Shown one piece after another: positions 25,160 to 63,451 of a stretch of DNA of 64,000 nt. Positions within the stretch are counted from its first letter, which is position 1; each line of letters starts with the position of its first letter. Both the position numbers and the translations under genes were made by a program. Under the pieces are notes generated by a model. It was not told the origin of the DNA. It saw nothing but the letters and a program-made list of their open reading frames with translations, and made no database searches. Source of the DNA: an uncultured Tateyamaria sp. (GTDB lineage Bacteria > Pseudomonadota > Alphaproteobacteria > Rhodobacterales > Rhodobacteraceae); NCBI RefSeq assembly GCF_947503385.1, contig NZ_CANNDO010000005.1, positions 1-64,000 of the forward strand, in the 5' to 3' direction.

Positions 25160-25279
25160 GTTTTTTTACCCATCAGTTTCAGCATGTTAAGGTCAATCCT
25201 TGCTCTGCGTGCGCGTTTGAGACCTTCCAATCAGGCCAACAACAAAATCGTTACTTTACAGACATTATTTGCATCATTT

Positions 25280-25291
25280 AATGTCGACATT
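25280..25291. promoter_or_regulatory. Palindrome AATGTCGACATT, candidate GntR operator
   Basis: A perfect 12-bp palindrome between the divergent GntR (start 25159) and protease (start 25379) genes. FadR-subfamily GntR proteins typically bind tGTnnACa-type palindromes, which this matches. The surrounding 25180-25290 is AT-rich and probably carries both promoters. Confidence 0.5.
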
Positions 25292-25378
25292 GTTGTAGGC
25301 AAATGGCGTCGCCCCACACCATAAAAGCTTTTGGCCCGCAATCAACGACGAATTGGCGATTTATAAGGACGATGACAC

Positions 25379-47979: not shown

Positions 47980-47995
47980 TTGCACACGTGTGCAA
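47980..47995. promoter_or_regulatory. Perfect palindrome TTGCACACGTGTGCAA, candidate LacI operator
   Basis: A 16-bp perfect palindrome with a central CG, the usual form for LacI-family sites, 57 bases upstream of the first gene of the ABC/SnoaL cluster. TTGACC at 47968 (a -35-like hexamer) overlaps its left edge, so bound repressor would block the promoter. The LacI regulator of the cluster (59261-60280) is the natural candidate. Confidence 0.7.
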
Positions 47996-48052
47996 AAATG
48001 TCTTGCCTCAGCGGCAACCTCGCCCGTACCGTTAAGGGATCAGGGGGACGCC

Positions 48053-49099
48053 ATGGCCGAAATTCAGCTACGCAATATCAACAAGCGGTGGGGCAACTTC
48101 GTCGGGGTCGACAATTTCGACCTGACCATCGCCGATCAGGAATTCCTCGTTTTGCTGGGCCCGTCCGGTTGCGGCAAGACCACGACGATGCGGATGATTG
48201 CCGGTCTTGAGGACGCGACCGATGGCGATATCGTGATCGACGGTAAGCGGGTCAACGACCTCGACCCCAAGGACCGCGACGTGGCGATGGTGTTCCAGTC
48301 CTACGGTCTTTACCCGCACCTGAACGTCTACGAAAACATCCGTTTCCCGCTCAAGGTGCGCAAGGTTGATCCGGCCAGCCACGATGAACGTGTGCGCCGC
48401 GCCTCTGCCATGGTGGAACTGGACGAGTTTCTGCACCGTAAACCCGCCGAGTTGTCCGGTGGTCAGCGCCAGCGCGTGGCGCTTGCCCGTGCCATCGTGC
48501 GGGAGCCTAATGTGTTCCTGATGGATGAACCGCTGTCGAACCTTGATGCCAAACTGCGCGTCTCGACCCGCGCGCAGATCAAAAACCTCAGCCACGAGCT
48601 AAAGGTGACCACCGTCTATGTGACCCATGACCAGATCGAAGCGATGACGCTTGCCGACCGGGTTGTCGTCATGAAGCAGGGCAAGGTCCAGCAGGTGGGC
48701 ACGCCCACAGATATCTACGACCGGCCCGCCAACACATTTGTGGCCAGCTTTATCGGCTCTCCGGCGATGAACCTGATGGACGGCCAGATGCAGAGCGGTA
48801 CGTTCACGGGCGACAATGTTTCGATCTCCGGGCTTGAGGGGCCAGACGGTCCCGTCACTTTGGGTTTTCGTGCCGAAGACGCCGCCGTGGCCGACGCCGG
48901 TGGCCAGATCACCGCACCGATCTACACGATCGAGCTGTTGGGTGACGCCACCATGCTGACGGTGCGCGCTGGCGGCCAGTTGGTGTCGATCAAAGCCCAC
49001 AAGGAATACCGGGCCGAGATTGGCGACACCGTTTCGTTCACCGTTCCTGCGGGCATCTGCCACGCATTCTCATCCTCCTCCGGCGAACGTATCGCCTGA
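48053..49099 (+). CDS. ABC transporter ATP-binding protein (MalK/UgpC type)
   Basis: The 348-residue protein powers sugar-type uptake from the cytoplasmic face. It has Walker A GPSGCGKTT (36-44), Q-loop VFQSYGLYPHLNV, signature LSGGQRQRVALARA, Walker B NVFLMDEPLSNLDA and the H-switch VTHDQIEA. A C-terminal OB/TOBE domain (FRAEDAAVADAGGQITAPIYTIELLGDATMLTV) is typical of CUT1 importers, where one ATPase subunit serves two permeases. AGGGGGA precedes the ATG. It is the first gene after the palindrome and starts the cluster. Confidence 0.93.
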   Translation: MAEIQLRNINKRWGNFVGVDNFDLTIADQEFLVLLGPSGCGKTTTMRMIAGLEDATDGDIVIDGKRVNDLDPKDRDVAMVFQSYGLYPHLNVYENIRFPLKVRKVDPASHDERVRRASAMVELDEFLHRKPAELSGGQRQRVALARAIVREPNVFLMDEPLSNLDAKLRVSTRAQIKNLSHELKVTTVYVTHDQIEAMTLADRVVVMKQGKVQQVGTPTDIYDRPANTFVASFIGSPAMNLMDGQMQSGTFTGDNVSISGLEGPDGPVTLGFRAEDAAVADAGGQITAPIYTIELLGDATMLTVRAGGQLVSIKAHKEYRAEIGDTVSFTVPAGICHAFSSSSGERIA

Positions 49100-49133
49100 G
49101 GAACCGGCGGCCCTTGGGGGCTGCCCAATCCAA

Positions 49134-49162
49134 GCCAGTGCAGGCTTGCAAGATGCACTGGC
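49134..49162 (+). promoter_or_regulatory. GCCAGTGCA-N11-TGCACTGGC hairpin before the binding-protein gene
   Basis: Perfect 9-bp inverted repeat in the 88-base gap between the ATPase and binding-protein genes, 26 bases before the latter's start. Such stems often protect the message of highly expressed binding-protein genes within transporter operons. Confidence 0.5.
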
Positions 49163-49187
49163 ACCAAACGCAACAGGGAGTTTGCAA

Positions 49188-50408
49188 ATGTATCTGAAGA
49201 AACTGGCACTGGCGGGCGCGATCTCGCTCCTGGGCAGCACGGCTTTCGCCGCGTGTTCCTACGAAAACGACGTGCCGTTGAAATCGCTGAGCGCAGGTTT
49301 TGAGGCGTGGAAGGCTGTCACGGACGCCATGGCCGAATGTGGCAACTTCCAAGCTGAGCTGGATCAGGAATTCCGCACCAAGCAACCCGCCGCATTCGAG
49401 GCAAACCCCTCGCTCTATCATATCGGTGGGGTGTCTAACGGGACAATTACGCCGCTGCTGAATGCGGGCACCATCCGTCCGCTGGACGATCTGGTTGCAA
49501 AATATGGTGAGAACCTGACGCCGAACCAACTGATCCGCGTGGATGGCAAGATCATGGCCGTGGCGATGATGGTGAACACGCAGCACCTGATGTACCGCTC
49601 TGACATTCTTGCCGATCTGGGCATCGACACACCCACAACATGGGACGAGGTGTTTGCCGCCGCAGACAAGATCAAAGAGGCAGGCGTTGTCGATCACCCG
49701 ATCGGTGCAACGATGAAATCCGGCTGGAACCTGGCGCAGGAATTCGTGAACATGTACCCTGGTTTCGGCGGCACATTCTTTAACGATGACAACACCACAG
49801 CGGTGAATTCAGACGCGGGCATGAAAGCGCTTGCGACCATGAAAAAGACGCTGGAATACACCGATCCAGAGGTTCTGGTCAGCGACTCCACATACGTGCA
49901 GCAGCAGTTCCAGCAGGGCAAGATCGCCATGGCGAACCTGTGGGCCAGCCGTGCCGGCGCGATGAATGACGAGAACGAAAGCCAAGTGGTGGGCAAGGTT
50001 GCGATGTCCGCAGCGCCCGTCGCCATGGACGGCGGTGCACCGGCCACGACGTTGTGGTGGGACGGTATCGTGATCGCGTCGAACATCACCGACGCCGAGG
50101 CGGATGCCGCCTTCCGTCTGGCGATGGAAGGGCTCGACAAGGACATGGTGACAAGCGCCAACGAGGCGGCGATCTGGCTGGTGGATGGCTATGTGCCGGG
50201 CGATCTGGCCAAGGGTGCGATTGCAACCGCAACCGCCAACCCCGCGCCTCCGCCTTATCCGTCGACCACACAGATGGGTCTGTTGCACACGGCATTGGGC
50301 AACGAACTGCCTGCGTTCCTGACGGGCGAGCGTGATGCGGCGGCGACTTTGGTGGCCATCGACGAATCCTACACCACAGCCGCCAAAGAAGCTGGCGTGC
50401 TGGAGTAA
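49188..50408 (+). CDS. ABC transporter substrate-binding protein (family 1, CUT1)
   Basis: The 406-residue periplasmic protein has a signal peptide (MYLKKLALAGAISLLGSTAFAACS) and a MalE-like fold (IRPLDDLVAKYGE, PTTWDEVFAAADKIKEAGV, FQQGKIAMANLWASRAGAM, WWDGIVIASNITDAEADAAFRLAMEG). It captures the imported solute; the fold suggests a carbohydrate-like or polyol compound. The C-terminal half has an AAIWLVDGYVPGDLAKG stretch I do not know from classical MalE. GGGAG precedes the ATG. It is second in the cluster. Confidence 0.9.
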   Translation: MYLKKLALAGAISLLGSTAFAACSYENDVPLKSLSAGFEAWKAVTDAMAECGNFQAELDQEFRTKQPAAFEANPSLYHIGGVSNGTITPLLNAGTIRPLDDLVAKYGENLTPNQLIRVDGKIMAVAMMVNTQHLMYRSDILADLGIDTPTTWDEVFAAADKIKEAGVVDHPIGATMKSGWNLAQEFVNMYPGFGGTFFNDDNTTAVNSDAGMKALATMKKTLEYTDPEVLVSDSTYVQQQFQQGKIAMANLWASRAGAMNDENESQVVGKVAMSAAPVAMDGGAPATTLWWDGIVIASNITDAEADAAFRLAMEGLDKDMVTSANEAAIWLVDGYVPGDLAKGAIATATANPAPPPYPSTTQMGLLHTALGNELPAFLTGERDAAATLVAIDESYTTAAKEAGVLE

Positions 50409-50462
50409 ATCCAATCGGGCTGGCCGGGGCAGACCCGGCCAGCCCAACCAACCGGGGGACAG

Positions 50463-51968
50463 ATGCAATCGGAATTCGATCATATTGTGGTGGGCGGTGG
50501 CTCTGCCGGGTGCGCGGTGGCCGCGCGCCTTGCTGAACGACCGGGCGCATCCGTGCTTGTGATCGAAGCAGGCCCCAGTGACCGGGACATCCGGGTCAAG
50601 GTGCCGTTTGGATTGGTCAATCTGATGCGGTCTGACACCCGAAACTGGAAACGCGAAACGGTCGCCATGGCGTCTGTGGGGGGGCGCAAAGTTCCGGTGC
50701 CGCGTGGCAAGATGCTGGGTGGGTCCGGTTCAATCAATTCGATGGTCTGGTTCCGCGGCTGCCGCGCGGATTTCGACGCGTGGAATCTGCCCGGATGGGA
50801 CAGCGCGACGGTGTGGCGTGCATTCGACGCGGTAGAGGCGCGCATGACGCCCGCCCGGTTGCCACATCCGCATCCATTGTCCGAAACCTTTGGCCGTGTC
50901 TTTCCTGCCAATGATCCCGGCGCACCGCCATCGCCCGAACGGCAAAGTGCAGGCGTCTTTCACTGCAATATGCGGGATGCCGCGCGCTGGTCTGCCGCCG
51001 ACGGGTTCCTGCGCCCGTCCGGTGCCACTGTGTTGACCGGGGCCGAGGTTGCACAGGTGACCTTTGACGGCGCCCGCGCGACGGGTGTGCAATTGCGAGA
51101 CGGGCGCAGGCTTTGCGCCCGCGCAGGTGTCGTGTTGTCCGCAGGCAGCATAGAAAGCCCGATGATCCTGATGCGGTCGGGCATCGGTCCGGGCAATGAT
51201 CTGCGCGTGTCAGGCATCGACGTGCGCGTGGATGCCCCCCTTGTGGGCGCAAACTTGCATGACCACCCCGGCTTTGGCCTGCATTTCAAAGGGGCAGGGT
51301 CGGGCTACGGCCTGACACTGGCCCAACTGCCCGCTTGGGCGCTGTCACCGCTGCAATGGTTGCTGAACCGCTCCGGTCGGCTTAGTTCCAACACTGTCGA
51401 AGCTGGCGCATTCTACAGCGTGTCCGGGGATGATGCGCCCGACGTCCAGACCCATTTCCTGCCGTTCCTGATGGGCTGGCAAAGCCGCAGCATTATCTGG
51501 GGAGCGGGTTACTTTGCCGATGTGTGCCTGTGTCAGCCGCGGTCGCGCGGACAATTGCGTATCGGTCACGACCCCTACGCGCCGCTCATCGACCTGAACC
51601 TGTTCGGCGATGACCACGACCTTGACATGATGGTCAAGGGCGTCACACGCCTGCGCGAAATCCTCGCCACAGCCGATTTTGGAACCCGCCGTGCCCCCGA
51701 AGCCTTTCCGTGCGCGGCCACCACAGGCGACGCCCTGCGCAGCATTATCCGCGCCCGCGCAGGCACCGCTTACCACCCGGTGGGCACGCTCGCTCTGGGT
51801 GGTCCGCTGGATGAGAAGGGCGCCGTCACGGGCACGCAAAACCTCTGGGTTGCAGATGCCAGCGTCATGCCGCGCATCACCACCGCCAACACAAATGCCC
51901 CGTCGATAATGATCGGCTGGCAGATCGGCGGCCATGTGGCCGCCGCAGCAACAAGGAACGCAGCATGA
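50463..51968 (+). CDS. GMC-family FAD oxidoreductase
   Basis: The 501-residue flavoenzyme has the FAD start HIVVGGGSAGCAVAARLAERPG (11-16), GKMLGGSGSINSMVWFRG, VVLSAGSIESPMILMRSGIGPGNDL, and the catalytic histidine H438 in AYHPVGTLALGGPLD. The C-terminal NTNAPSIMIGWQIGGHVA closes the FAD site. Such enzymes oxidise alcohols (choline, sugars, polyols) and act in the cytoplasm. It sits between the binding-protein and first permease genes, overlapping the permease start (ATGA), so it is likely the first oxidation step for the imported compound. Confidence 0.9.
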   Translation: MQSEFDHIVVGGGSAGCAVAARLAERPGASVLVIEAGPSDRDIRVKVPFGLVNLMRSDTRNWKRETVAMASVGGRKVPVPRGKMLGGSGSINSMVWFRGCRADFDAWNLPGWDSATVWRAFDAVEARMTPARLPHPHPLSETFGRVFPANDPGAPPSPERQSAGVFHCNMRDAARWSAADGFLRPSGATVLTGAEVAQVTFDGARATGVQLRDGRRLCARAGVVLSAGSIESPMILMRSGIGPGNDLRVSGIDVRVDAPLVGANLHDHPGFGLHFKGAGSGYGLTLAQLPAWALSPLQWLLNRSGRLSSNTVEAGAFYSVSGDDAPDVQTHFLPFLMGWQSRSIIWGAGYFADVCLCQPRSRGQLRIGHDPYAPLIDLNLFGDDHDLDMMVKGVTRLREILATADFGTRRAPEAFPCAATTGDALRSIIRARAGTAYHPVGTLALGGPLDEKGAVTGTQNLWVADASVMPRITTANTNAPSIMIGWQIGGHVAAAATRNAA

Positions 51969-52993
51969 AGTTCAAGACCTTCTTCTGGTTCGTGGCCCCG
52001 TCGGTCTTTATGATGCTTCTATTCATCGCGGCCCCGCTGGTTTCGGTGTTCCTGCAAAGCTTCCAGATTACCCAGCCCGTCCTGCAACAGGTCGAGGTCG
52101 AAACCTGTACACCGGGTTTCCTCACACAGACCTGCACGACCGAACTCAAGACAATTCCCATCATAGACGAGGCAACGGGCAAGACGCTGACCACCACCGA
52201 ATGGGTCGGCCTGCAAAGCTATCGCAACGTGCTTCAGATGGACAAGGTCTGGGCCGCCATCGGCAGCGCCAACTTTGGCGATATCTGGCAGATCGATTTC
52301 TGGAAGGCGTTGCGGTTCACGCTGATGTTCACGTTGATCACGCTGCCGCTGGTCATTGGTGTGGGCCTCGCTATCGCACTTGCGGTGAACAACGCCGCCA
52401 AGTCCTTACGCGGCCCGGTCATTTTCATTTCGCTCCTGCCGTTCATCATCACGCCTGTGATCGGATCGCTGTCGATCTACTGGCTGTTTGTGGGAGACGG
52501 CATCCTGACGGCGGCGCTGGAACGCTGGACGGGGCAGGACATCGCGATGTTCGCCCAAGCCTGGACGATCGAGCTTTTGATGTATTTCTATCGCGTCTGG
52601 CATGTGGCCCCGTTCGCCTTTGTGATCTTCTACGCGGGCCTGCAAACCGTGAACATGGACACGCTGGAAAGCGCGATCATCGACGGCGCATCCCGGTTCG
52701 AGCGGCTGCGCTATGTGATCGTGCCGCACCTGATGCCGCTGATCATCTTTATCGCGCTCATTCACCTGATGGACTGTTACCGCGTGTTCGAAGAGATCGT
52801 GGGCTTCCGCAGTCAGGCGCACGTCATCTCGCTGCAATGGCTGACTTACGACTTCCTCGTACCGGATGATGCTGGCAATCGCGCGGTCAGCCGCGCCTCG
52901 GCCAGCGCTATGCTCACCATGATCGGTATCGTGATCCTGCTGATCCTGCCGCTGCGCCGCACATGGCGCGACCACAAGGGAGGGGCCCACTGA
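51965..52993 (+). CDS. ABC transporter permease (MalF type)
   Basis: The 342-residue membrane protein has six main segments and the EAA-loop (ESAIIDGASRFERLRYVIVPHLMPL). After the first segment comes a periplasmic stretch with four cysteines (VEVETCTPGFLTQTCTTELKTIP and neighbours) that is unusual in CUT1 permeases and may form a disulfide-held loop. It pairs with the next protein in the transmembrane channel. The stop overlaps the next start by one base (TGATG). Confidence 0.9.
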   Translation: MKFKTFFWFVAPSVFMMLLFIAAPLVSVFLQSFQITQPVLQQVEVETCTPGFLTQTCTTELKTIPIIDEATGKTLTTTEWVGLQSYRNVLQMDKVWAAIGSANFGDIWQIDFWKALRFTLMFTLITLPLVIGVGLAIALAVNNAAKSLRGPVIFISLLPFIITPVIGSLSIYWLFVGDGILTAALERWTGQDIAMFAQAWTIELLMYFYRVWHVAPFAFVIFYAGLQTVNMDTLESAIIDGASRFERLRYVIVPHLMPLIIFIALIHLMDCYRVFEEIVGFRSQAHVISLQWLTYDFLVPDDAGNRAVSRASASAMLTMIGIVILLILPLRRTWRDHKGGAH

Positions 52994-54144
52994 TGTCAAA
53001 GGCCACCGCACAGCCACTGTCGCTCAAGGTTGCATCCGGCGCGTTCCTCGCCTTCTGGTGCCTGCTCGCCGCTTTCCCGATCGTCTGGATCGCGGTGATG
53101 AGCTTCAAGTCACCCCGCGACGCGTTCGACGCCAACCCGCTCAATGTGATCCTCGGCCCCGTCACCCGTGCGACGGGCAACGGGTTGAGCGTGCCGGATA
53201 TCATCCTCGGTCTGGCGTTCCTGTTCTTTGCCATCCGCTGGGCGTTTACGGGACTGCCCAGATTGGTGGAACGTTTCACACCGCCAGGTCTGATCGTGGT
53301 GGGCTGGCTTGTGGGGGCCGCGGTTTACGGGATCGTGTTCGTGATCCTGTTCTTCGGCGTCTTGCCGCCAGTGTTCGATATCATCAACAGCATCCTTGGT
53401 CCGCTGGGGACACCTGTTCTTGGGCTCACAACCGAACATTACGTGGCCGTGTGGGGCGAGAACGAGTTCTACCGCAACTTCATGAACTCCATGATCGTGA
53501 CGGCAGGCGTGGTCACGATCTCACTGACGGTTGGTACACTGGCGGGCTACGGGCTGGCACGGTCCGGCTCGAACCTCGCCTTCTGGCTGCTGATCCTCGC
53601 GCTGATCTTTCGCGCGTTGCCGCACTCGGTGCTGGTGGCAGGCTACCTGCCGTGGTTCATCAATTCGGCGGAAATCCTGCGCCCCATATTTGGCGAACTC
53701 AGCCCGACACTCTACGGTCAACCCTGGGCGGTGATCGCGGTGCTGGTTTCGATCAACCAGCCCTTCACCATCTGGATGCTGCGCTCGTTCTTCCAGAACA
53801 TTCCCGCCGAACTGGACGAAGCCGCCCGTGTCGATGGCTGTTCGCATTTTCAGGCGTTCCGCCGCGTGATCATGCCGGTGATGTGGCCCGGTGTAATCAC
53901 CACGGGGCTGTTCAGCTTCCTGTTGGGTTACAACGACTTTCTTGTCACCTCGCTGCTGCTGGATGCGCAGAACCAGACGATGGTCCCGGCCATCGCGGGC
54001 TACTTTAACCGCGAAACCACCACCACGGATCAGGTCGAAGCCGTTGCCGCCGCCGTCTCCATCACCGCGCCGCTCTTCTTGCTGGTGATGGTCTTCCAGC
54101 GCCAGATCGTCTCCGGCCTGACGGCGGGTGCGGTCAAGGGGTGA
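52993..54144 (+). CDS. ABC transporter permease (MalG type) with extra membrane segments
   Basis: The 383-residue membrane protein is longer than a normal MalG (about 280-300). The MalG core is present: WIAVMSFKSPRDAF at the head, EFYRNFMNSMIVTAGVVTISLTVGTLAGYGLARS and the EAA loop DEAARVDGCSHFQAFRRVIMPVMWPGVI. Between the first segment and the core there are two or three additional hydrophobic stretches (IILGLAFLFFAIRWAFTG, LIVVGWLVGAAVYGIVFVILFF). The start at 52993 gives MSKATAQPLSLKVASG; the 10 extra upstream codons overlap the previous gene. It completes the importer. Confidence 0.88.
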   Translation: MSKATAQPLSLKVASGAFLAFWCLLAAFPIVWIAVMSFKSPRDAFDANPLNVILGPVTRATGNGLSVPDIILGLAFLFFAIRWAFTGLPRLVERFTPPGLIVVGWLVGAAVYGIVFVILFFGVLPPVFDIINSILGPLGTPVLGLTTEHYVAVWGENEFYRNFMNSMIVTAGVVTISLTVGTLAGYGLARSGSNLAFWLLILALIFRALPHSVLVAGYLPWFINSAEILRPIFGELSPTLYGQPWAVIAVLVSINQPFTIWMLRSFFQNIPAELDEAARVDGCSHFQAFRRVIMPVMWPGVITTGLFSFLLGYNDFLVTSLLLDAQNQTMVPAIAGYFNRETTTTDQVEAVAAAVSITAPLFLLVMVFQRQIVSGLTAGAVKG

Positions 54145-54147
54145 TGG

Positions 54148-54192
54148 TTTCTTCTGACTGAAAATACCACGGGGTCCGGGGCAGCGCCCCGG
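54148..54192 (-). repeat. Intergenic repeat family, copy 7
   Basis: Minus strand: CCGGGGCGCTGCCCCGG hairpin, ACCCCGTGGTATTTTCAGTCAGAAGAAA. It lies between the permease and SnoaL genes of the cluster, in the reverse of the usual orientation. The hairpin may partly separate the two operon halves. Confidence 0.65.
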
Positions 54193-54223
54193 TTCCGACA
54201 TCTGAACAAAGGATGCACGACAC

Positions 54224-54754
54224 ATGAAAGGTTCCCGCCCGGAACAAGCGGTCCTGACCCGCGCCACCGACATGTCCAAAACGGACGAGACCCGCGCGGT
54301 GATCGAGGGGATGGTGGATGGTCTCAACGACCACCGGATTGACGACATCGGCCAGTTCTTCGCCGAGACATTTCGCTGGATGGGGAACACCGGCTGTGGC
54401 ACCAAAAACGGGCTGCAAGAGTTTCAGGACAACTGGCAGCGCCCGTTTCAGGCCGCCTTTTCCGACAAAGTCTGCGTAGACGAAGCGCGGCTCTATATGG
54501 GGGAATGGGCCGCCGCTTTCGGCCGTCAAGAGGCCACGCATAGCGGTCAGTTCATGCAAGTGGCCCCCACCGGCAAGCGGATCGAGATCCGTTACATGGA
54601 TTTCTGGAAGGTGGAGGACGGGCGCATCACGGACAATTATGTGATGGTCGATTTCCCCCACGTTCTGGCCCAACTCGGCGTCGATGTATTCGACGGGATG
54701 GGCTGGGAAGCGTTTGACCGTGGCGTCCGGACCCCGCCGCGCCCCGACAATTGA
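54224..54754 (+). CDS. SnoaL/NTF2-like protein 1 (ester cyclase family)
   Basis: The 176-residue protein is one SnoaL-like cone domain: IEGMVDGLNDHRIDDIGQFFAETFRWMGNTGCGTKNGLQEFQDNWQRPFQAAFSD...RYMDFWKVEDGRITDNYVMVDFPHVLAQLGVDVFDGMG. SnoaL proteins catalyse aldol-type ring closure or related proton-transfer steps without cofactor, or bind small ligands. The closing NYVMVDFPHVLAQLGVD segment recurs in proteins 2 and 3 of the cluster. A second ATG at 54272 is possible. It lies nine bases before the HisD-like gene. Confidence 0.8.
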   Translation: MKGSRPEQAVLTRATDMSKTDETRAVIEGMVDGLNDHRIDDIGQFFAETFRWMGNTGCGTKNGLQEFQDNWQRPFQAAFSDKVCVDEARLYMGEWAAAFGRQEATHSGQFMQVAPTGKRIEIRYMDFWKVEDGRITDNYVMVDFPHVLAQLGVDVFDGMGWEAFDRGVRTPPRPDN

Positions 54755-54763
54755 GGTGAGACA

Positions 54764-56092: not shown

Positions 56093-56106
56093 GGGCCGCG
56101 TGCGGA

Positions 56107-56162
56107 GGGGGGCTTTGCCCCCCGGCTGCGCCTCCCCCAGGATTTTTTTGGACAGAGACAGG
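56107..56162 (+). repeat. Intergenic repeat family, copy 8 (diverged)
   Basis: GGGGGGCTTTGCCCCCC hairpin, then CCCCCAGGATTTTTTTGGACAGAGACAGG. The hairpin and spacer CGGCTGCGCCT match copy 2 closely; the tail is diverged. It lies between the HisD-like and SnoaL 2 genes of the cluster; the purine tail supplies GGGACA before the next start. Confidence 0.6.
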
Positions 56163-56174
56163 GACACAGATCGC

Positions 56175-57182
56175 GTGGGCGACACCAACCAGCGCAACAA
56201 ACAGACCGCTCTGACGCTTTGGGCGGCGCTGGATCGTGATCCGGGCGCGGCCTTGCCGATGCTGTCGGAACTGCGTCACTGGCAGGGGCCGGAACCTGTG
56301 GGTGTCCAGACATGTCCCGAAAGTGTCGTCGCACAGATGTTTGCGCCCCTGCGGGCTGCGATCCCTGACCTGAAACGGCAGATGCATATTTTTGTGGCTG
56401 GGCAGTCGGACGCGCTGAATGAGGGCGACGCCGATGGTGCGCACTGGGTGGCGGGCACCGGTTACTATACCGGGCTTGCGGTGGCAGAAGTTTTTGGCAT
56501 TCCCGTCACTGACGCCGATCTGCGCATTCGCTGGGGCGACTTTTTACGTTTTGACGCAGCGGGTCGGGTGACCCATGCGCAGACCATCTGGGATCTGGTG
56601 GATTGGTGCGACCAGATTGGCCACCCTGTTCTGCCCCGCCCGCGCGGGGCCATGCACGTCTACCCGGCGCCAACCGGGTTTGACGGAATACTGCGCGCTC
56701 CGCAGGACACACAAGAGACGGCAGAGACATTGCAACTGGGCCGGGCGTTCATCTTTGGCGGGCTCAACAGCTTTGACGAAAGCGACCTGTCGAGCATGGG
56801 CATGGCGCAATTCTTTCATCCCAATGTAAAGTGGTACGGGCCGGGCGGCATTGGCGCGTGCCTGTCGCTGGCAGAATTTGAAACATTCCATCAGAAACCA
56901 TGGCTGACAGCCTTTCCTGACCGCAAAGTCATGCATCTGGAGAGCCTCTTTGCCGAAGGGCGGATTTTGGCGGCCTCTGGCCCCATGGGCGTCATCGGGC
57001 ATCACAGCGGGCCCTACCTTGGGCACGCCGCCACTGGCGCACCGATTGAGGTGTCTGGGCTGGATTTCTGGTTGCGGGACGGCGGGCAATTCACCGAAAA
57101 CTGGGTTTTTGTCGACATGATCCACCTGTTCAAGCAGATGGGCGTGGACCTGCTTGGCCCGTTGAAGAGGCACGCGGCATGA
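56175..57182 (+). CDS. SnoaL/NTF2-like protein 2, double domain
   Basis: The 335-residue protein is made of two SnoaL-like halves (about 1-160 and 180-330). The second half reads FFHPNVKWYGPGGIGACLSLAEFETFHQKPWLTAFPDRKVMHLES...ENWVFVDMIHLFKQMGVDLL. The GTG at 56175 is selected because it follows the purine-rich AGGGACA and excludes the repeat; the long upstream frame runs through the repeat. It shares the WYGP-GIG, H-Q-P, PDR and NWV-VD-H-Q-GVD pattern with protein 3. The two are translationally coupled (ATGA), suggesting a heteromer. The reaction is unknown. Confidence 0.78.
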   Translation: MGDTNQRNKQTALTLWAALDRDPGAALPMLSELRHWQGPEPVGVQTCPESVVAQMFAPLRAAIPDLKRQMHIFVAGQSDALNEGDADGAHWVAGTGYYTGLAVAEVFGIPVTDADLRIRWGDFLRFDAAGRVTHAQTIWDLVDWCDQIGHPVLPRPRGAMHVYPAPTGFDGILRAPQDTQETAETLQLGRAFIFGGLNSFDESDLSSMGMAQFFHPNVKWYGPGGIGACLSLAEFETFHQKPWLTAFPDRKVMHLESLFAEGRILAASGPMGVIGHHSGPYLGHAATGAPIEVSGLDFWLRDGGQFTENWVFVDMIHLFKQMGVDLLGPLKRHAA

Positions 57183-58228
57183 CGGACGCCCCAAGCAGAC
57201 ACAAGGCCCTGCTGGCCCCGGTGCGGGCGGCGATGTACGACTTTGACCAAGGGGCGGTCCGTGACGCCCTTGCGGCGGTGTGCGCCCCTGAAATTGCCTT
57301 TCACCTGGCCTTTCCCTTTGGCACGATGCAGGGCGTTTCTGCATATCTCGACGCGGCCTATGCGCCGCTGCTTGCGGCCATTCCGGACCTTGAACGGCGT
57401 GATCACATCGTCATGGCGGGTCCCACACCCGAAGGCGCCGATTGGGTCGGATGCGGTGGTTACTACACCGGCACCTTCGTTGCACCATGGCTCGACATTC
57501 CGCCCACAGGGCACGTTGTGCACATGCGGTTTCACGAGTTCTATCGTTTTGAGAAAGATAAGATCACCGAAATGCAGGCGCTGTGGGACATTCCCGAGGT
57601 GATGATGCAGGCCGGTGCCTGGCCGATGGTGCCATCGTTGGGCCGGGAATGGCACGTGCCGGGGCCCGCCACCTGTGACGGGCTGGTGCCGGGGCCGTAC
57701 GATGCCGATCAGGGGCAGGCCACCTGCCAGCAGATCATCGACATGCTGACGCACATGAAGCGCCATCCCAGCCAAGGCGGGCCGGAGGTGATGGAGATGG
57801 AGCGGTTCTGGCATCCGCGGATGACGTGGTACGGGCCGTCGGGCATTGGCACGGGGCGCGGCATTCAAGGCTTTCGCGACTGGCACCAGATTCCGTTCCT
57901 GAACGCCATGCCTGACCGTGGCGCGTTTGTGGAGGATATCGTCTATCACTTCTTCGGGGATCGTGCCTATGCTGCGGTAACTGGGTGGCCAAATATGTAC
58001 CAGACGCTGACGCATGGCGGTTGGTTGGGATTGCCGCCGGTGGACAAAAAGATTGCCATGCGCAGTCTCGATTTCTGGCGGTTGGAGCGTGGATTGATAC
58101 GGGAGAACTGGGTGATGGTGGACCTGCTGCACATGTATGACCAACTGGGTGTCGATGTGCTGGCGCGGATGCGCGAATTCAACAAGGCGCGCGCCGGGTT
58201 TGATCCCGAGACGGGGCGTGCAGCATGA
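57179..58228 (+). CDS. SnoaL/NTF2-like protein 3, double domain
   Basis: The 349-residue paralogue of protein 2 has an N-terminal half (VCAPEIAFHLAFPFGTMQGVSAYLDAAYAPLLAAIPDLERR) and a C-terminal half (WHPRMTWYGPSGIGTGRGIQGFRDWHQIPFLNAMPDRGAFVEDI...LIRENWVMVDLLHMYDQLGVDVLARM). Both halves have the cone-shaped layout with H and D residues at the pocket positions. It overlaps SnoaL 2 and the SDR gene by four bases each. A joint role with the SDR on one substrate is likely. Confidence 0.8.
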   Translation: MTDAPSRHKALLAPVRAAMYDFDQGAVRDALAAVCAPEIAFHLAFPFGTMQGVSAYLDAAYAPLLAAIPDLERRDHIVMAGPTPEGADWVGCGGYYTGTFVAPWLDIPPTGHVVHMRFHEFYRFEKDKITEMQALWDIPEVMMQAGAWPMVPSLGREWHVPGPATCDGLVPGPYDADQGQATCQQIIDMLTHMKRHPSQGGPEVMEMERFWHPRMTWYGPSGIGTGRGIQGFRDWHQIPFLNAMPDRGAFVEDIVYHFFGDRAYAAVTGWPNMYQTLTHGGWLGLPPVDKKIAMRSLDFWRLERGLIRENWVMVDLLHMYDQLGVDVLARMREFNKARAGFDPETGRAA

Positions 58229-58986
58229 TGGATCTGCCTCGGACACCCACTCTGGATCTGACCGGCAAACGTGCGCTGGTCACGGGCGCATCATCCGGCA
58301 TCGGGCTGGGTTGCGCCGTGGCGCTGGCTGAGGCCGGGGCGCATGTGGTCTGCGCAGCGCGCCGCGTCGACGCGTTGACCCAAGCCGTCGCCGCGATGCA
58401 GGCCGAAGGATGGAGCGCCGAAGCCCTGCCACTGGATCAAACCGATCTGCCCGCGCTCAAGGCGGCCTTTGACGCGCCGTTCGAAATTGTGCTGAATTCC
58501 GCCGGGCTGGCCCGGCACGGCCCGGCTATCGACACGGCCCCCGCAGATTTCGACGCCGTGTTCGACATCAACCTGCGCAGCGCCTTTTTCCTGTCGACTT
58601 ACGCCGCAGCCGCGCTGACCGATGCGGGCAAGCCGGGGTCGATCATCCACATTTCAAGTCAGATGGGTCATGTGGGGGGCATCGACCGCAGCGTCTATTG
58701 CGCCACGAAACACGGGGTCGAAGGGATGGTCAAAGCCATGGCGATTGAATGGGGCAAGGCGGGCATCCGCATCAATACGATCTGCCCGACCTTTATCCGC
58801 ACCCCGCTGACAGCCCCCACATTCGACAACCCCGACCGGCTGGCGTGGATCATGGACAAGATCAAGCTGCCCCGTGTGGGCGAAGTCAGCGACATCATGG
58901 GCGCGGTACAATTCCTTGCCTCCGACGCGTCGGCAATGGTCACGGGCACGCATATGCTCATTGACGGTGGATGGACGGCGGACTGA
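58225..58986 (+). CDS. Short-chain dehydrogenase/reductase
   Basis: The 253-residue NAD(P)-dependent enzyme has cofactor motif VTGASSGIG (TGASSGIG at 20-27), NSAG in IVLNSAGLARHG, and the catalytic triad S145, Y158, K162 (ISSQMGHVGGIDRSVYCATKHG). FIRTPLTAP and GTHMLIDGGWTAD are typical C-terminal parts. It likely oxidises or reduces a secondary alcohol made in this pathway. It overlaps both neighbours (ATGA upstream, TGATG downstream). Confidence 0.92.
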   Translation: MMDLPRTPTLDLTGKRALVTGASSGIGLGCAVALAEAGAHVVCAARRVDALTQAVAAMQAEGWSAEALPLDQTDLPALKAAFDAPFEIVLNSAGLARHGPAIDTAPADFDAVFDINLRSAFFLSTYAAAALTDAGKPGSIIHISSQMGHVGGIDRSVYCATKHGVEGMVKAMAIEWGKAGIRINTICPTFIRTPLTAPTFDNPDRLAWIMDKIKLPRVGEVSDIMGAVQFLASDASAMVTGTHMLIDGGWTAD

Positions 58987-59261
58987 TGCGCGAACCCGCC
59001 GACATGTCGCATACCGACCTCGGACTGAGGCTCCCGCAAAGTGCCGGGGATGCTTGGAACGCAATGCAGGGCAATGTGCGCTTTGCGCGGCATCGCCAGT
59101 TGATTCAGATCTACCCGATCCAAGAGATCAAGGTGGTCGGCACGCATGACAGCGAGGGCGCATGGTCGATCACGCCCTATCCCGGAACAACCGGGTTTGG
59201 AGAGTTGGGGTTGATCGGGTGCAAGCATATCCATGACCGGCTTTGCGGGCGGGTGACCTGA
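58986..59261 (+). CDS. Small protein of unknown function in the SnoaL cluster
   Basis: The 91-residue protein reads MREPADMSHTDLGLRLPQSAGDAWNAMQGNVRFARHRQLIQIYPIQEIKVVGTHDSEGAWSITPYPGTTGFGELGLIGCKHIHDRLCGRVT. It has no signal peptide or membrane segment and no domain I know. The start shares one base with the SDR stop and the stop shares one with the LacI start. This double TGATG coupling makes it a real gene. Histidines and a cysteine near the end (GCKHIHDRLC) could bind metal. Confidence 0.65.
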   Translation: MREPADMSHTDLGLRLPQSAGDAWNAMQGNVRFARHRQLIQIYPIQEIKVVGTHDSEGAWSITPYPGTTGFGELGLIGCKHIHDRLCGRVT

Positions 59262-60280
59262 TGCCGGACAAGGTGACAGCGCTGGATGTGGCAGAGCGTG
59301 CCGGGGTATCGCGGTCCGCCGTGAGCCGCGTGTTCACGCCCGGTGCCTCCGTGTCCAAGCGGACCGCCGACAAGGTGCGGCAAGCGGCCACCGCTCTGGG
59401 CTACCGGCCCAATGTTTTGGCGCGCAGTCTGATCACCGGGCGCAGCCGCATCATCGGATTGTTGGTCGCCTATCTGGAGAACCATTTCTACCCCGAAGCG
59501 ATTGAGCGCATCAGCCGCCTTTTGCAGGAACAGGGCTATCACGTGCTGGTCTTTATGGCCTCGAACTCCGTCACCGAAGCAGATGAGGTGATGGAAGAGC
59601 TGCTCGATTATCAGGTCGACGGCATCATTGCGGCCAGCGTCGGCATGTCCAACGATCTGACGCAACGCTGCGAGGCGGCGGGCATTCCCATCGTACTGTT
59701 CAACCGCACCCAGGATGACGCGCGCCTATCTGCCGTGACCTCCGACAATTATGCGGGAGGGCGCAAGCTGGCCGAATTCCTCGTGGCGGGTGGGCACAGC
59801 CGCATTGCACATGTCGCAGGGTGGGAAGGCGCGTCGACCCAGCGAGACCGCGAGGCGGGGTTTCTGGCAGGGCTTGGTGATGCGGGGCAAACCCTTTATT
59901 CGCGGGGTGTCAGCGACTTTGACTTTGACAAAGCAAAATCCGTCGCGCGCGATATGTTTGCAGGTCCGGAGCGGCCCGACGCGGTGTTTTGTGCCAATGA
60001 CCACATGGCCTTTGCCGTGATGGATGTTCTGCGTTTTGAACTGGGCCTTGATGTGCCGGGGGACGTGTCCGTTGTCGGATATGACGACGTAACGCTTGCC
60101 GCCTGGCCGTCCTATGACCTCACAACCGTGCGCCAACCGGCTGGGCGTTTGGCAAAGGCTGCAATCGACATTCTGATGGACCGCCTTGCCGATCCACAAA
60201 CCGTTCCCCGCCGCGTCGCGCTTGATGGCCCGCTCATCCTGCGCGGCTCGGCCCGTATCCCCGAAGGATGGACCACATGA
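59261..60280 (+). CDS. LacI-family transcriptional regulator
   Basis: The 339-residue regulator has an N-terminal helix-turn-helix and hinge (VTALDVAERAGVSRSAVSRVFTPGASVSKRTADKVRQAATALGYRPNVLARSL) and a periplasmic-binding-type sensor domain (IIGLLVAYLENHFYPEAIERISRLLQEQG...DGIIAASVGMS...RPDAVFCANDHMAFAVMDVLRFELGLDVPGDVSVVGYDDV). It should bind the pathway inducer and release the palindrome at 47980-47995. It sits inside its own target operon and overlaps both neighbours, so expression should rise with induction. Confidence 0.92.
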   Translation: MPDKVTALDVAERAGVSRSAVSRVFTPGASVSKRTADKVRQAATALGYRPNVLARSLITGRSRIIGLLVAYLENHFYPEAIERISRLLQEQGYHVLVFMASNSVTEADEVMEELLDYQVDGIIAASVGMSNDLTQRCEAAGIPIVLFNRTQDDARLSAVTSDNYAGGRKLAEFLVAGGHSRIAHVAGWEGASTQRDREAGFLAGLGDAGQTLYSRGVSDFDFDKAKSVARDMFAGPERPDAVFCANDHMAFAVMDVLRFELGLDVPGDVSVVGYDDVTLAAWPSYDLTTVRQPAGRLAKAAIDILMDRLADPQTVPRRVALDGPLILRGSARIPEGWTT

Positions 60281-61260
60281 AGGGCTTTTCGAACCGTTGG
60301 GCTGACTTTCCCGATTACATCATCGGCATCACCAAGGAGATTTGGGAGGATCGCGGCATAGCGACCCTGCACCACTACTACAGCCCCGATATCGTCGTGC
60401 GGTCGCCCGGTTCCGTGGTGATCGGCAACGAAAAGGTCATCGGGGCCACCATGGCCACGCTGGCCGAATTTCCTGACCGGCAACTCTTGGGCGAGGACGT
60501 GATCTGGAGCGGGACACCGGAGGCGGGAATGCTGTCGTCGCACCGTATCCTCAGCACCGCCACCCACCTTGCCGATGGGGTCTATGGCCCCGCCAGCGGG
60601 AAAAAGCTGCAATACCGGATCATCGCCGACTGCCACGCGATCAACGATCAGATCAACGACGAATGGTTGATCCGGGATCAGACTGCCATCGTCCGGCAGA
60701 TCGGCTGGGACGCCAAGGCCTATGCCGCAGACCTGATTGCCCGCGAAGGCGGGCCGGAGGCTTGCGTGCGCCCCCTGACGCCCGCCACGGATCAGCCCGG
60801 CCCCTATTCGGGGCACGGCAACGACAACATTTGGGGCAAAACATACGCCAGCGTTTTGGAGCGGATTATGGGGGCCGACATGGCCGCCATCCCCACGGAA
60901 TACGACCGCGCTGTGCAATCCGAATATCCGGGGGGCGAAACGGGGCATGGCACCGGCCCGGTGGACCGGTTCTGGATGGGCTTGCGCGCGTCCTTTCCGG
61001 ACGCGACATTCACCATTGACCATCAGATTGGGCGCGAAGACCCGACCATGCCGCCCCGTGCCGCCATCCGCTGGAGCCTGCACGGCAAGCATGACGGCTG
61101 GGGCTATTTCGGCGCACCCACGGGGGCCGGCGTCTATGTGCTGGGGATCAGTCATGCCGAATTTGGCAGCCTCGGTGCCGCACCCGCCAAAATCCGCCGT
61201 GAATTCACGCTCTTCGACGAGACCGCGATCTGGAAACAGATTCTGTTGCAAACGGGGTAG
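60277..61260 (+). CDS. SnoaL/NTF2-like protein 4, double domain
   Basis: The 327-residue protein again looks like two NTF2-like halves: HHYYSPDIVVRSPGSVVIGNEKVIGATMATLAEFPDRQLLGEDVIW...CHAINDQINDEWLIRDQTAIVRQIGWDA, then WMGLRASFPDATFTIDHQIG...AIRWSLHGKHDGWGYFGAPTGAGVYVLGISHAEF...IRREFTLFDETAIWKQIL. It is more distant from proteins 1-3 and lacks their shared end motif. The start at 60277 overlaps the LacI stop (ATGA). Confidence 0.75.
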   Translation: MKGFSNRWADFPDYIIGITKEIWEDRGIATLHHYYSPDIVVRSPGSVVIGNEKVIGATMATLAEFPDRQLLGEDVIWSGTPEAGMLSSHRILSTATHLADGVYGPASGKKLQYRIIADCHAINDQINDEWLIRDQTAIVRQIGWDAKAYAADLIAREGGPEACVRPLTPATDQPGPYSGHGNDNIWGKTYASVLERIMGADMAAIPTEYDRAVQSEYPGGETGHGTGPVDRFWMGLRASFPDATFTIDHQIGREDPTMPPRAAIRWSLHGKHDGWGYFGAPTGAGVYVLGISHAEFGSLGAAPAKIRREFTLFDETAIWKQILLQTG

Positions 61261-61341
61261 AGCGCATCCTTGAATTGGAACCACTCAGTCCCCAACTCAG
61301 GACAGCCCGCAAGATGCGTGGGCGGCCAACGGGATTGATCC

Positions 61342-61956
61342 ATGCAACGCTATGACGACATCATGTTCACAGACGGGGTGAAGGCCCTGCAAGAGGCGGA
61401 CGGCAGCGCAGAGATGTATGCGCGCGGCTATGGCCCGCGCACGCGCCCGCTGAACGCGGACGACATCGCCTTTGTCACCAGCCGCACGTCCTTCTATCTT
61501 GGCTCGGTTTCCGAAACGGGCTGGCCCTACATTCAGCATCGCGGCGGACCTGCCGGGTTCCTCAAGGTGCTGGACGATCACACCGTTGCCTTTGCCAATT
61601 ACCGGGGCAACAAGCAGCACATTTCCGAAGGGAACATCAGGGCCGACGACCGTGTGTCGCTGTTCCTGATGGACTATGCTCGCAAAGCCCGGATGAAGAT
61701 GCAAGGCCGGGCACGGTTCGTGCAGGCCGCTGATGATCCGGCGCTGGCTGACCAACTGCCGGCGGATGGGCAGGGCCGCGTGGAACGGCTGGTCATCATC
61801 ACGCTGGAGGCGTTCGACTGGAATTGCCCGCAATTCATCACACCGCGTTTCGACGCAAGCGAGATCGCGCAGCTTGTCGGACCGGAGATGGACAAGCTGA
61901 ACGCCCGCATCGCCGAACTTGAGGCCGAGAACGCGCAGCTAAAGGGGCAGGGATGA
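61342..61956 (+). CDS. Pyridoxamine 5'-phosphate oxidase-like FMN protein
   Basis: The 204-residue protein has the FMN-binding split-barrel pattern (DDIAFVTSRTSFYLGSVSETGWPYIQHRGGPAGFLKVLDDHTVAFANYRGNKQHISEGNIRADDRVSLFLMDYARKARMKMQGRARF), as in the PPOX/Rv2074-type family. It ends in a short coiled coil (MDKLNARIAELEAENAQLKGQG), suggesting dimer or partner binding. The family does not have to make pyridoxal phosphate; many members reduce quinones or F420-like substrates. It overlaps the next gene by four bases. Confidence 0.82.
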   Translation: MQRYDDIMFTDGVKALQEADGSAEMYARGYGPRTRPLNADDIAFVTSRTSFYLGSVSETGWPYIQHRGGPAGFLKVLDDHTVAFANYRGNKQHISEGNIRADDRVSLFLMDYARKARMKMQGRARFVQAADDPALADQLPADGQGRVERLVIITLEAFDWNCPQFITPRFDASEIAQLVGPEMDKLNARIAELEAENAQLKGQG

Positions 61957-62489
61957 CCGACCTCTACCGCGCCGCTGAACGCCTGATGGGGATGCAGGAT
62001 GCCGACTGGCGGCGTCACGCAAACCCGCTCAGCGTCTGGTCGCGGTTCACCTGTCTGCCGCTCTTGGTGCTGGCGATCTATGCACGCACGTGGATCGGCT
62101 GGTGGGCCTTGCCCCTGTTTGTGCTGGCAGTGGCGTGGACGTGGTACAACCCACGTGCTTTTCCGCCGCCACGGAACTTTGGGACGTGGGCATCGCGCGC
62201 GACGCTTGGTGAACGGATTTTTCTGGCCCGCAAGACGTACGTCGTCGCGGCGCACCATGTGCGTGCCGCCAACGTACTGACATTGCTCAGCGCGTTGGGC
62301 GCGGTTCCACTTGTCTACGGGCTTGTCGTCCTGAACCCGTGGGCCACGCTGGCAGGCATCGTTGCCACGATCCTGCCAAAGGTCTGGTTCTGTGACCGCA
62401 TGGTCTGGATTCACGCCGAACTGACAGACACAACACCGGGCGACCCGCTGCCCGAACCCCTGTTGCCACCGGAAAGGACCCCGATATGA
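61953..62489 (+). CDS. DUF6653-like integral membrane protein
   Basis: The 178-residue protein has about four hydrophobic segments (FTCLPLLVLAIYARTWIGWWALPLFVLAVAWTWYNP; VLTLLSALGAVPLVYGLVVLNPWATLAGIVATILPKVWFCD) and a cytosolic head MTDLYRAAERLMGMQDADWRRHANPLSVWSR. It resembles DUF6653 membrane proteins, whose function is unknown. It is coupled by ATGA at both ends to the FMN and cupin genes, so it belongs to the cluster. Confidence 0.7.
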   Translation: MTDLYRAAERLMGMQDADWRRHANPLSVWSRFTCLPLLVLAIYARTWIGWWALPLFVLAVAWTWYNPRAFPPPRNFGTWASRATLGERIFLARKTYVVAAHHVRAANVLTLLSALGAVPLVYGLVVLNPWATLAGIVATILPKVWFCDRMVWIHAELTDTTPGDPLPEPLLPPERTPI

Positions 62490-63451
62490 CCCCCGCCGAA
62501 ATGGAGCCGCGCATCGTCAGATACGGCGAGCTCAAGCCCTGCAAGACTGCGTTCATCGACGCACACACGCCCGGCTCTGACCAGAAGGAAAACTTTACCA
62601 TCATCGGCGGTGGCGTGTCGGAAAGCCCGGACCAACATGTGCACATCTCGATCCCGCACGGGTTTAACATCGGCGCAGCCGGTCAGCAGCCAAAATGCCG
62701 CAACTCGCTGCACAGTCACCGCACGGCGGAGGTGTTCTTTGTTCTGTCAGGGCGTTGGCGGTTCTTTTGGGGGCGCTGGGGCGACGCGGGCGAGGTCGTG
62801 CTGGAAGAAGGCGACATCATCAACATTCCCACAGGCATTTTCCGCGGGTTCGAGAATGTGGGCACGGATTACGGGATGATTATGGCGATCCTTGGGGGGG
62901 ACGATGCCGGGGGCGGCGTGATCTGGGCACCGCAAGTGATCGAGGACGCCCGCGACCACGGTCTTACCCTCGGGGAAAATGGCAGTCTTTATGACAGCAA
63001 GCGGGGCGAAACCCTGCCCGTCGGGATAAAGCCCATGGCACCGCTTGGCGATGCGGACCTGCAAACCTTCCCCGAAATGACGCCAAGCGAGGTCGTGGGA
63101 TTTGGCGTGCGCCGCTATTGGGATATGGTGGCCTTGGCCAAGGATCGGCCCTGCAAGGTCATCGGAGAGACGGGGATCATCCGTGACAAACCCGGCTTCG
63201 AAGTTGATTTGCTTACCCGCTCCAGCGCAACATTGGATATGCACAGCCACGACAGACCATCCGTCCTGATGCCCATGCGCGGCCATTGGCGTGTCACATG
63301 GGACGGCGGTGAGACGACGCTTGCGCCCGGCGATACAATGAGCGTGCCCGAGGATTTGCCGCACAATGCAGTGCCGTCGATGACGGGTGAGGCATCGCTT
63401 TATCATATTGTCGGAACGGATGATCCCGCGGGGGCCACGTGGCGCGGCTGA
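62486..63451 (+). CDS. Bicupin protein
   Basis: The 321-residue protein has two cupin domains: SLHSHRTAEVFFVLSGRWRFFWGRWGDAGEVVLEEGDIINIPTGIFRGFEN (about 70-130) and LDMHSHDRPSVLMPMRGHWRVTWDGGETTLAPGDTMSVPEDLPHNAV (about 250-300). Each has HxH...E/H-type metal ligands. Bicupins include gentisate and other dioxygenases, oxalate decarboxylases and isomerases; this one may act on an acid produced by the HisD-like enzyme or open a ring. It starts by overlap with the DUF6653 gene. Confidence 0.82.
   Translation: MTPAEMEPRIVRYGELKPCKTAFIDAHTPGSDQKENFTIIGGGVSESPDQHVHISIPHGFNIGAAGQQPKCRNSLHSHRTAEVFFVLSGRWRFFWGRWGDAGEVVLEEGDIINIPTGIFRGFENVGTDYGMIMAILGGDDAGGGVIWAPQVIEDARDHGLTLGENGSLYDSKRGETLPVGIKPMAPLGDADLQTFPEMTPSEVVGFGVRRYWDMVALAKDRPCKVIGETGIIRDKPGFEVDLLTRSSATLDMHSHDRPSVLMPMRGHWRVTWDGGETTLAPGDTMSVPEDLPHNAVPSMTGEASLYHIVGTDDPAGATWRG

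Follow-up and report, generated by a model that had tools for sequence, protein, structure and literature searches.

A conserved LacI-controlled cluster with tandem SnoaL proteins in Tateyamaria and its relatives: a candidate operon for the catabolism of mycosporine-like amino acids

What does a bacterium take up and degrade with a gene set that joins a complete ABC importer to several classes of oxidoreductase, a bicupin and a series of SnoaL proteins? The question is raised by fifteen genes, all on the + strand, at positions 48053-63451 of a 64,000-nucleotide stretch of DNA (referred to as the window; contig NZ_CANNDO010000005.1, assembly GCF_947503385.1) from an uncultured Tateyamaria sp. 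An earlier note on this DNA, made from the letters alone, read the genes as one LacI-controlled import-and-catabolism cluster matching no described pathway, and a literature search of partial coverage has turned up no counterpart. Here, we find that the genes almost certainly form a single conserved LacI-controlled catabolic system, and we tentatively propose a substrate-induced catabolic operon for mycosporine-like amino acids (MAAs: shinorine, porphyra-334, mycosporine-glycine) or their core, 4-deoxygadusol. MAAs are UV sunscreens of algae and cyanobacteria. The analysis shows the gene content, its conservation, the operator, the regulon link to a distant SnoaL gene (dSnoaLD), the absence of an HpsN motif from a HisD-like dehydrogenase, and the link between dSnoaLD and a serine deaminase in a Vibrio-like genus; the reactions proposed below are all inferred.

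Conservation was assessed with dSnoaLB, one of the tandem SnoaL proteins, as query and one genome per species; 380 relatives were reported and the best 80 loci analysed, which gives an upper view of conservation, the more distant clusters being looser. All eleven core genes – encoding the importer ATPase, its binding protein and two permeases, SnoaL1, the HisD-like enzyme, dSnoaLB, an SDR oxidoreductase, LacI, dSnoaLC, and the bicupin – lie on one strand in 74 of these 80 loci, and the order of the same-strand core genes is identical in each of the 80. The six exceptions to the full core include L086, a contig of 7 kb, and L048, in which the HisD and bicupin genes lie elsewhere on the other strand. 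Conserved synteny was the check that the earlier note had set, and its outcome is strongly positive, the relatives keeping the genes together rather than apart. The 80 relatives include Tateyamaria, Roseobacter, Sulfitobacter, Ruegeria, Roseibium, Oricola, Paracoccus, Geminicoccaceae and others; the set is plasmid-borne in Octadecabacter, Paracoccus alcaliphilus, Ruegeria and Ensifer (the Ensifer record is unannotated), and parts of it are plasmid-borne in Vibrio pelagius and Halobellus. The annotated records inspected label these genes only as ester cyclase, histidinol dehydrogenase, cupin and the like.

The enzyme set as first described is incomplete, since further enzymes are usual in the relatives beyond the extent of the window: a MetE-like protein (74 of 80 loci), an RraA-family protein (68 of 80) and a lactonase-like alpha/beta hydrolase (41 of 80). 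The MetE-like gene lies downstream of the bicupin gene, within about 2.1 kb, in 72 of the 73 loci with both, and the genes between the two vary among loci and carry no signal. The cluster of this genome likewise does not end at 63451, as had been supposed: an uncharacterised gene (63439-64000 in the window, which holds only its start; contig 63439-64374, + strand) is followed by the MetE-like gene at contig positions 64405-65520. Among genomes of the same family, the bicupin occurs in 80 of 198 and the MetE-like gene in 80 of 197, with both in 74, a co-occurrence with a Fisher p of about 2e-40 in a table where G751, although it has both genes, was taken as outside the 197 genomes of the MetE-like scan.

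Ahead of the cluster is a predicted LacI-type operator, the perfect 16-base palindrome TTGCACACGTGTGCAA at 47980-47995, 57 bases before the ATG of the ATPase gene. This site is the sole exact match in the window to the pattern TTGCANNCGNNTGCAA; allowing two mismatches gives three window matches where chance would give 4.6, so that weight can be placed on the exact match alone. Of the 77 relatives with an ATPase gene and enough upstream DNA, 75 have the pattern no more than 200 bases ahead of the ATPase match, and the operator predicted in the earlier note is thus confirmed as a conserved palindrome. All parts of a CUT1 importer with LacI control are present: an ATPase of the UgpC/MalK type (48053-49099; Pfam ABC_tran, TOBE_2), a family 1 extracellular solute-binding protein (49188-50408; SBP_bac_1), permeases A (51965-52993) and B (52993-54144; both BPD_transp_1), a LacI-family regulator (59261-60280; LacI, Peripla_BP_3; 78 of 80 loci), and the conserved upstream palindrome. 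The reading as a single conserved cluster for import and catabolism under LacI control is supported.

The exact 16-mer occurs at only two places in the window's genome, the front of the cluster and C2:247193-247208, and five further exact matches of the looser pattern differ in their inner bases. On contig C2 (region L120:4194-5726) the operator copy is followed by a small lipoprotein-like gene and then by a fifth tandem SnoaL gene, dSnoaLD (ATG near 4719). The predicted regulon thus has a distant member on contig C2, a correction to the earlier description. An additional tandem SnoaL gene of the same broad type as dSnoaLD is present in the loci of 55 of the 80 relatives, mostly divergent and directly before the ATPase gene; in a tree made from selected loci these genes form at least two clades, only one of which contains dSnoaLD.

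Four SnoaL proteins are encoded within the cluster, as the earlier note had counted, three of them two-domain proteins, giving seven SnoaL domains in all (Pfam SnoaL). These are the single-domain SnoaL1 (54272-54754; 79 of 80 loci), dSnoaLA (56055-57182 from the first ATG, with candidate starts at ATG 56055, GTG 56100 and TTG 56115; optional, 12 of 80 loci), dSnoaLB (57179-58228, matched in two stretches) and dSnoaLC (60268-61260; 79 of 80 loci). A tree of 87 tandem SnoaL sequences places dSnoaLA in its own clade with two relatives and resolves, with 100/100 support, a dSnoaLD clade of 17 rows that unites the operator-linked gene of this genome with a Ruegeria gene and Vibrio genes. This genome's dSnoaLD shares 52% identity with the Vibrio europaeus protein, and its dSnoaLB 31%. 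For structure, 31 dSnoaLB and 29 bicupin sequences, the window's included, were aligned from the 80 and 77 available relatives; the dSnoaLB model (pLDDT 84) gives NTF2-fold hits, and its top hits include two-domain epoxide hydrolases with poor whole-length superposition (TM about 0.3-0.4).

A clue to SnoaL function comes from a genus that we call Vibrio-like, because its SnoaL proteins share 80-98% identity with that of the Vibrio europaeus record, and in which a dSnoaLD orthologue is present in 40 of 148 genomes searched. Twenty loci were read from those 40 genomes, chosen to spread over identity. In 16 of the 20, an L-serine ammonia-lyase gene (TIGR00720, 655.4 bits, cut-off 345.1) lies within about 4 kb of the SnoaL gene; all 16 also hold a sodium:solute symporter and an MFS gene, 14 have a LacI gene and 12 a porin, and one of the four lyase-less loci (G771) retains a 49-residue lyase remnant. 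The 20 genomes have two to three lyase matches each, so the lyase is a common gene, but we estimate that such proximity would seldom arise by chance with genome sizes of about 5 Mb. The closeness of lyase and dSnoaLD orthologue points to serine as a product of the predicted dSnoaLD reaction. A common palindrome was looked for in the symporter-MFS intergenic region of these loci, and none was found. According to the available part of a review (PMC3083659), it has been suggested that Vibrio harveyi converts shinorine and porphyra-334 to mycosporine-glycine by hydrolysing off their hydroxyamino acids, and bacterial formation of 4-deoxygadusol is mentioned. The compound had been pictured in the earlier note as oxidised and then rearranged by cofactor-free enzymes, which holds only in part: the Vibrio clue hints at amino-acid release by one or more of the SnoaL proteins, and the SnoaL enzymes may accordingly act first, as hydrolases.

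Several other SnoaL neighbourhoods were seen. A sarcosine link was given no weight, as the V. pelagius neighbours look like an ordinary sarcosine operon, and sulfatase-like genes, named by eye, stand beside the SnoaL genes of two of the 20 Vibrio-like loci and near the G161 locus, too rarely to be of use. In three small genomes (1.6-2.1 Mb) an HAD-type hydrolase, assigned by Pfam in L122 and L123 and by eye in L172, lies near SnoaL genes (L122:10898-11557, L123:3363-4043, L172:1344-1997). A Phaeobacter inhibens DOK1-1 plasmid carries a reduced copy (L133:7502-12459), with the ATPase and one SnoaL gene annotated and an unannotated dSnoaLB match between them; it is flanked on both sides by IS3 transposases, and the other core genes are unannotated there. 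A Phaeobacter piscinae plasmid (L130:5105-12963) has LacI, SnoaL and carbohydrate ABC importer genes beside a dSnoaLD-type gene, and the annotation of the 25 kb shown includes no HisD, cupin or methionine synthase gene.

The HisD-like dehydrogenase (54764-56092; 77 of 80 loci) matches Pfam Histidinol_dh over its whole length (447.7 bits, residues 4-410 of 411) and exceeds the cut-off of TIGR00069 (429.2 bits against 243.8). The HisD superfamily acts on alcohols that have an OH or NH2 group as neighbour. Its nearest PDB relative is the sulfopropanediol 3-dehydrogenase HpsN (390 bits), which carries the motif G-R-Y-A/S-H, its final His126 binding the sulfonate according to the available part of PMC11382572. 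The corresponding positions here read G-K-F-P-M, the Met being present in all 82 aligned sequences, and the same 82 keep the zinc-loop pair D353-K354 (HpsN Asp352-Lys353). Because the sulfonate-reading His is missing throughout, dihydroxypropanesulfonate (DHPS) is an unlikely substrate; the identity with HpsN was rejected on this motif, and the idea that HpsN-type sulfonate oxidation explains part of the cluster is disfavoured. The absence of the motif while the D-K pair is kept makes it likely that the enzyme carries out a four-electron oxidation of a CH2OH group beside an OH group, on a substrate without a sulfonate at that place. The HisD fold, the conserved D-K pair and a probably NAD-dependent four-electron oxidation of CH2OH next to OH are thus shared with the HpsN/DHPS pathway, from which this system differs in its lack of the sulfonate-reading motif, its other neighbours and its CUT1 importer.

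The bicupin (62486-63451; Pfam Cupin_2, two stretches) is a candidate ring-cleaving dioxygenase. Its model (pLDDT 82.8) has a bicupin fold, with hits to quercetin 2,3-dioxygenase and salicylate 1,2-dioxygenase at a query-normalised TM of 0.43-0.53; in the N-terminal cupin H76, H78 and E82 are invariant (83 of 83), and in the poorly conserved C-terminal cupin the candidate ligands H253 and H255 are present in 45 of 83. The MetE-like protein meets the cut-off of its Pfam domain (56.1 bits against 21) but not that of the best NCBIfam model (87.4 against 406), and no second gene in the window's genome matches PF01717. It keeps H243, C245, E277 and C343 in 77 of 77 sequences; the set corresponds to zinc ligands H, C, E and C as given in the available part of PMC12478193, the matching of residue to ligand being our reading.

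The hydrolase is nearest to 3-oxoadipate enol-lactonase models, well below their cut-offs, and the RraA-family protein has a weak likeness to aldolases of 4-carboxy-4-hydroxy-2-oxoadipate (CHA), with 28.5 bits against a cut-off of 304.5 for TIGR02798 and 29.4 against 179 for NF006731. Gly ... Arg-Asp is the active-site motif of the HMG/CHA aldolases of the RraA family, and WGE...RD, placed by alignment to 3noj, is conserved in 73 sequences. In G424, of the Vibrio-like genus, an HpaI/GarL-type aldolase stands beside HisD-like, bicupin, SDR and SnoaL genes, and in Halobellus an HpaI-type aldolase and homologues of a DesA/LigM (syringate/vanillate) O-demethylase and a catechol 2,3-dioxygenase lie about 9-16 kb from the SnoaL genes. 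Both the RraA and HpaI aldolase families release pyruvate, and this suggests a pathway that ends when a 4-hydroxy-2-oxo acid is split by a retro-aldol reaction. A paralogous cluster without SnoaL genes, found in contig C1 of the same genome (L171:10385-17789, about 1020384-1027788), combines another CUT1-like importer with LacI (54%), bicupin (70%) and RraA genes, and in G739 and G563 such a cluster also holds HisD-like and hydrolase genes. Judged by this content, a lower module appears to consist of HisD, bicupin, hydrolase and RraA, and an upper module, which removes decorations, of the SnoaL and MetE-like proteins; the substrate of the SnoaL-free cluster probably enters the same lower pathway.

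The cyclohexenone ring of 4-deoxygadusol has an O-methylated enol, and its tertiary carbinol carries a CH2OH group; in shinorine, glycine and serine are attached. Serine release, methyl handling, oxidation of CH2OH to COOH, a dioxygenase-like bicupin, a lactonase-like hydrolase and a pyruvate aldolase fit MAAs, which to our knowledge are one abundant marine compound class to suit that reaction set. In the proposed pathway the CUT1 importer would take up the compound, and LacI would leave the predicted operator once the inducer binds. The tandem SnoaL enzymes would hydrolyse vinylogous C-N bonds and free the amino acids, with the dSnoaLD type freeing serine or threonine; the MetE-like zinc protein would take off the O-methyl group; and the HisD-like enzyme would oxidise the tertiary carbinol's CH2OH to COOH, passing four electrons to two NAD+. 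The bicupin, with O2, would cleave the resulting cyclic reductone, and the lactonase-like hydrolase would open any lactone. From the structures, cleavage between carbons 2 and 3, after demethylation and CH2OH oxidation, is predicted to yield CHA carbon for carbon, which the RraA-family (elsewhere HpaI-type) aldolase would split into pyruvate and oxaloacetate.

Gene content fixes the reaction types better than it fixes the substrate, and it is possible, if somewhat doubtful, that the system serves another O- or N-methylated, amino-acid-bearing or cyclitol-type marine algal metabolite through the same chemistry (C-N hydrolysis, demethylation, alcohol-to-acid oxidation, dioxygenation and retro-aldol cleavage). 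The SnoaL-free paralogous cluster in this genome, G739 and G563 would suit such a compound, since its existence implies that the lower module serves more than one substrate. Against this, no second abundant marine compound is known to us in which serine, an O-methyl enone and a CH2OH carbinol occur together. The Vibrio report in the available part of PMC3083659 also fits MAAs. A sugar, sugar-acid or polyol pathway, in which GMC, SDR and HisD enzymes oxidise, the lactonase opens a lactone, SnoaL proteins isomerise or dehydrate, and an RraA-type aldolase yields pyruvate, appears unlikely. It would account readily for a CUT1 importer with a LacI regulator, for PDB relatives of the binding protein that are by name mostly sugar binders (one of them for sorbitol), for an SDR (58225-58986; Pfam adh_short_C2; 79 of 80 loci) nearest to KduD models, and for the divergent amidohydrolase in 17 of 80 loci, whose nearest model, below cut-off, is fuconolactonase. 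However, it leaves unexplained the conserved MetE-like gene, the bicupin, and the fact that in the Vibrio-like genus the SnoaL gene has a serine ammonia-lyase gene as neighbour.

We regard as improbable that the SnoaL proteins are non-enzymatic, as ligand-binding or scaffold proteins, around a simple alcohol-oxidising core. NTF2-like folds are often non-catalytic, and these proteins have no curated function, with hits far below cut-offs and no NCBIfam hit for the Vibrio europaeus protein; but dSnoaLB has many invariant polar residues, separate clades persist from lineage to lineage, and in the Vibrio-like genus one SnoaL gene is retained alongside transporter and deaminase genes. A sulfonate pathway of the HpsN type, acting on DHPS or a conjugate, seems highly improbable: a sulfoquinovosyl-glycerol binder among the relatives of the binding protein adds to the closeness of the HisD-like enzyme to HpsN, but Met replaces the sulfonate-binding His in every aligned sequence and no sulfo-lyase is named among the annotated neighbours in the records inspected.

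Catabolism of MAAs remains our preferred, still tentative, reading, and several observations weigh against it. Nothing direct names the substrate, which we infer; the binding protein's relatives are named for sugar, sorbitol and sulfoquinovosyl-glycerol; and a literature search of limited coverage found no genes for bacterial MAA breakdown (nor, for homarine, which was also considered, anything tying it to SnoaL genes). The HisD gene is missing in three of the 80 loci and in the stretch of G109 that was read. Soil Ensifer and soil Paracoccus alcaliphilus carry the cluster without the MetE-like gene, and soil is not the best-known setting for MAAs. Ten genomes without a dSnoaLD gene have one to five lyase matches each, and in V. 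pelagius the lyase proves little, because in one strain it sits in the apparent sarcosine operon and in the other the stretch has no lyase. The bicupin fold also matches oxalate decarboxylase and vicilins (seed storage proteins), and Arg120 stands in 83 of 83 sequences where the usual fourth metal ligand, a His, would be. The RraA, MetE-like and hydrolase proteins fall far below the NCBIfam cut-offs of every named family that they match, and in the window's genome no RraA or hydrolase gene lies beside the cluster. The demethylase and dioxygenase homologues of Halobellus lie beyond an IclR gene and possibly belong to a separate aromatic pathway, which makes that neighbourhood a hint and not a proof.

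Parts of the proposed pathway resemble known systems. The lower pathway of gallate/protocatechuate 4,5-cleavage uses the LigK/GalC CHA aldolase, and an RraA-family aldolase with an R-D motif that would act on CHA, together with a lactonase-like hydrolase, would be common to both; the core described here lacks aromatic ring-cleavage genes, and its RraA-family associate scores far below the aldolase cut-offs. The Smo (sulfoquinovosyl-glycerol) and LacI/CUT1 sugar operons share the CUT1 importer and LacI control, and SmoF is among the relatives of the binding protein, but the present core has no glycosidase or monooxygenase, with SnoaL, bicupin and MetE-like genes instead. Vanillate/syringate O-demethylation by LigM/DesA is folate-linked, and the Halobellus homologue near the SnoaL set, itself below cut-offs, recalls it, whereas the bacterial clusters carry the MetE-like protein. 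That protein has the MetE-like catalytic domain with H, C, E and C found in the core-MetE homologues, whose function in aerobic marine bacteria is called questionable in the available part of PMC12478193; the likeness is one of domain and residues, and the gene here is tied to a catabolic operon.

The remaining genes of the window's cluster are optional. They encode a GMC oxidoreductase (50463-51968; Pfam GMC_oxred_N/C; 11 of 80 loci), a PNPOx-type FMN protein (61342-61956; PNPOx_N, with an MSMEG_1061 family match below cut-off; 25 of 80) and a DUF6653 protein (61953-62489; DUF6653; 15 of 80), so that the GMC oxidase and FMN protein, counted in the earlier note as part of the set, are present here and lie outside the core. 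Otherwise its inventory stands: fifteen genes in one direction, with domain assignments borne out by Pfam for all fifteen (the ATPase, binding protein, SnoaL1 and dSnoaLA were queried with starts a few codons off, and the coordinates given here are the corrected ones). That most of the genes overlap by 1-4 bases was an overstatement, as six of 14 junctions do so; LacI and dSnoaLC overlap by 13 bases, HisD and dSnoaLA by 38 (from the first ATG), and six junctions are gaps of 9 to 274 bases. A 96-codon frame without a Pfam match (58971-59261) fills the gap between the SDR and LacI genes, which abut in relatives such as L010. Elsewhere in the window, positions 24001-26000 have a G+C content of 0.535 against 0.57-0.65 in the rest, possibly a foreign insert.

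With its MetE-like marker in 80 of 197 sampled genera of the family, the gene set probably serves a common metabolite, whatever the substrate. If that substrate is an MAA, genes would be assigned to an activity suggested for bacteria in the available part of PMC3083659, algal UV protection would be linked to carbon and nitrogen cycling with a marker for metagenomes, some marine MetE-like proteins would gain a use, and the tandem SnoaL proteins a catabolic role. More tentatively still, the cluster could be the main bacterial route of MAA mineralisation, present in about two fifths of the family's sampled genera and in part in Vibrio and others, in which case the tandem SnoaL proteins would represent a novel class of C-N hydrolase (vinylogous-amidine hydrolases), the MetE-like protein would be a cobalamin-free O-demethylase, and the ring would pass through CHA to pyruvate and oxaloacetate.

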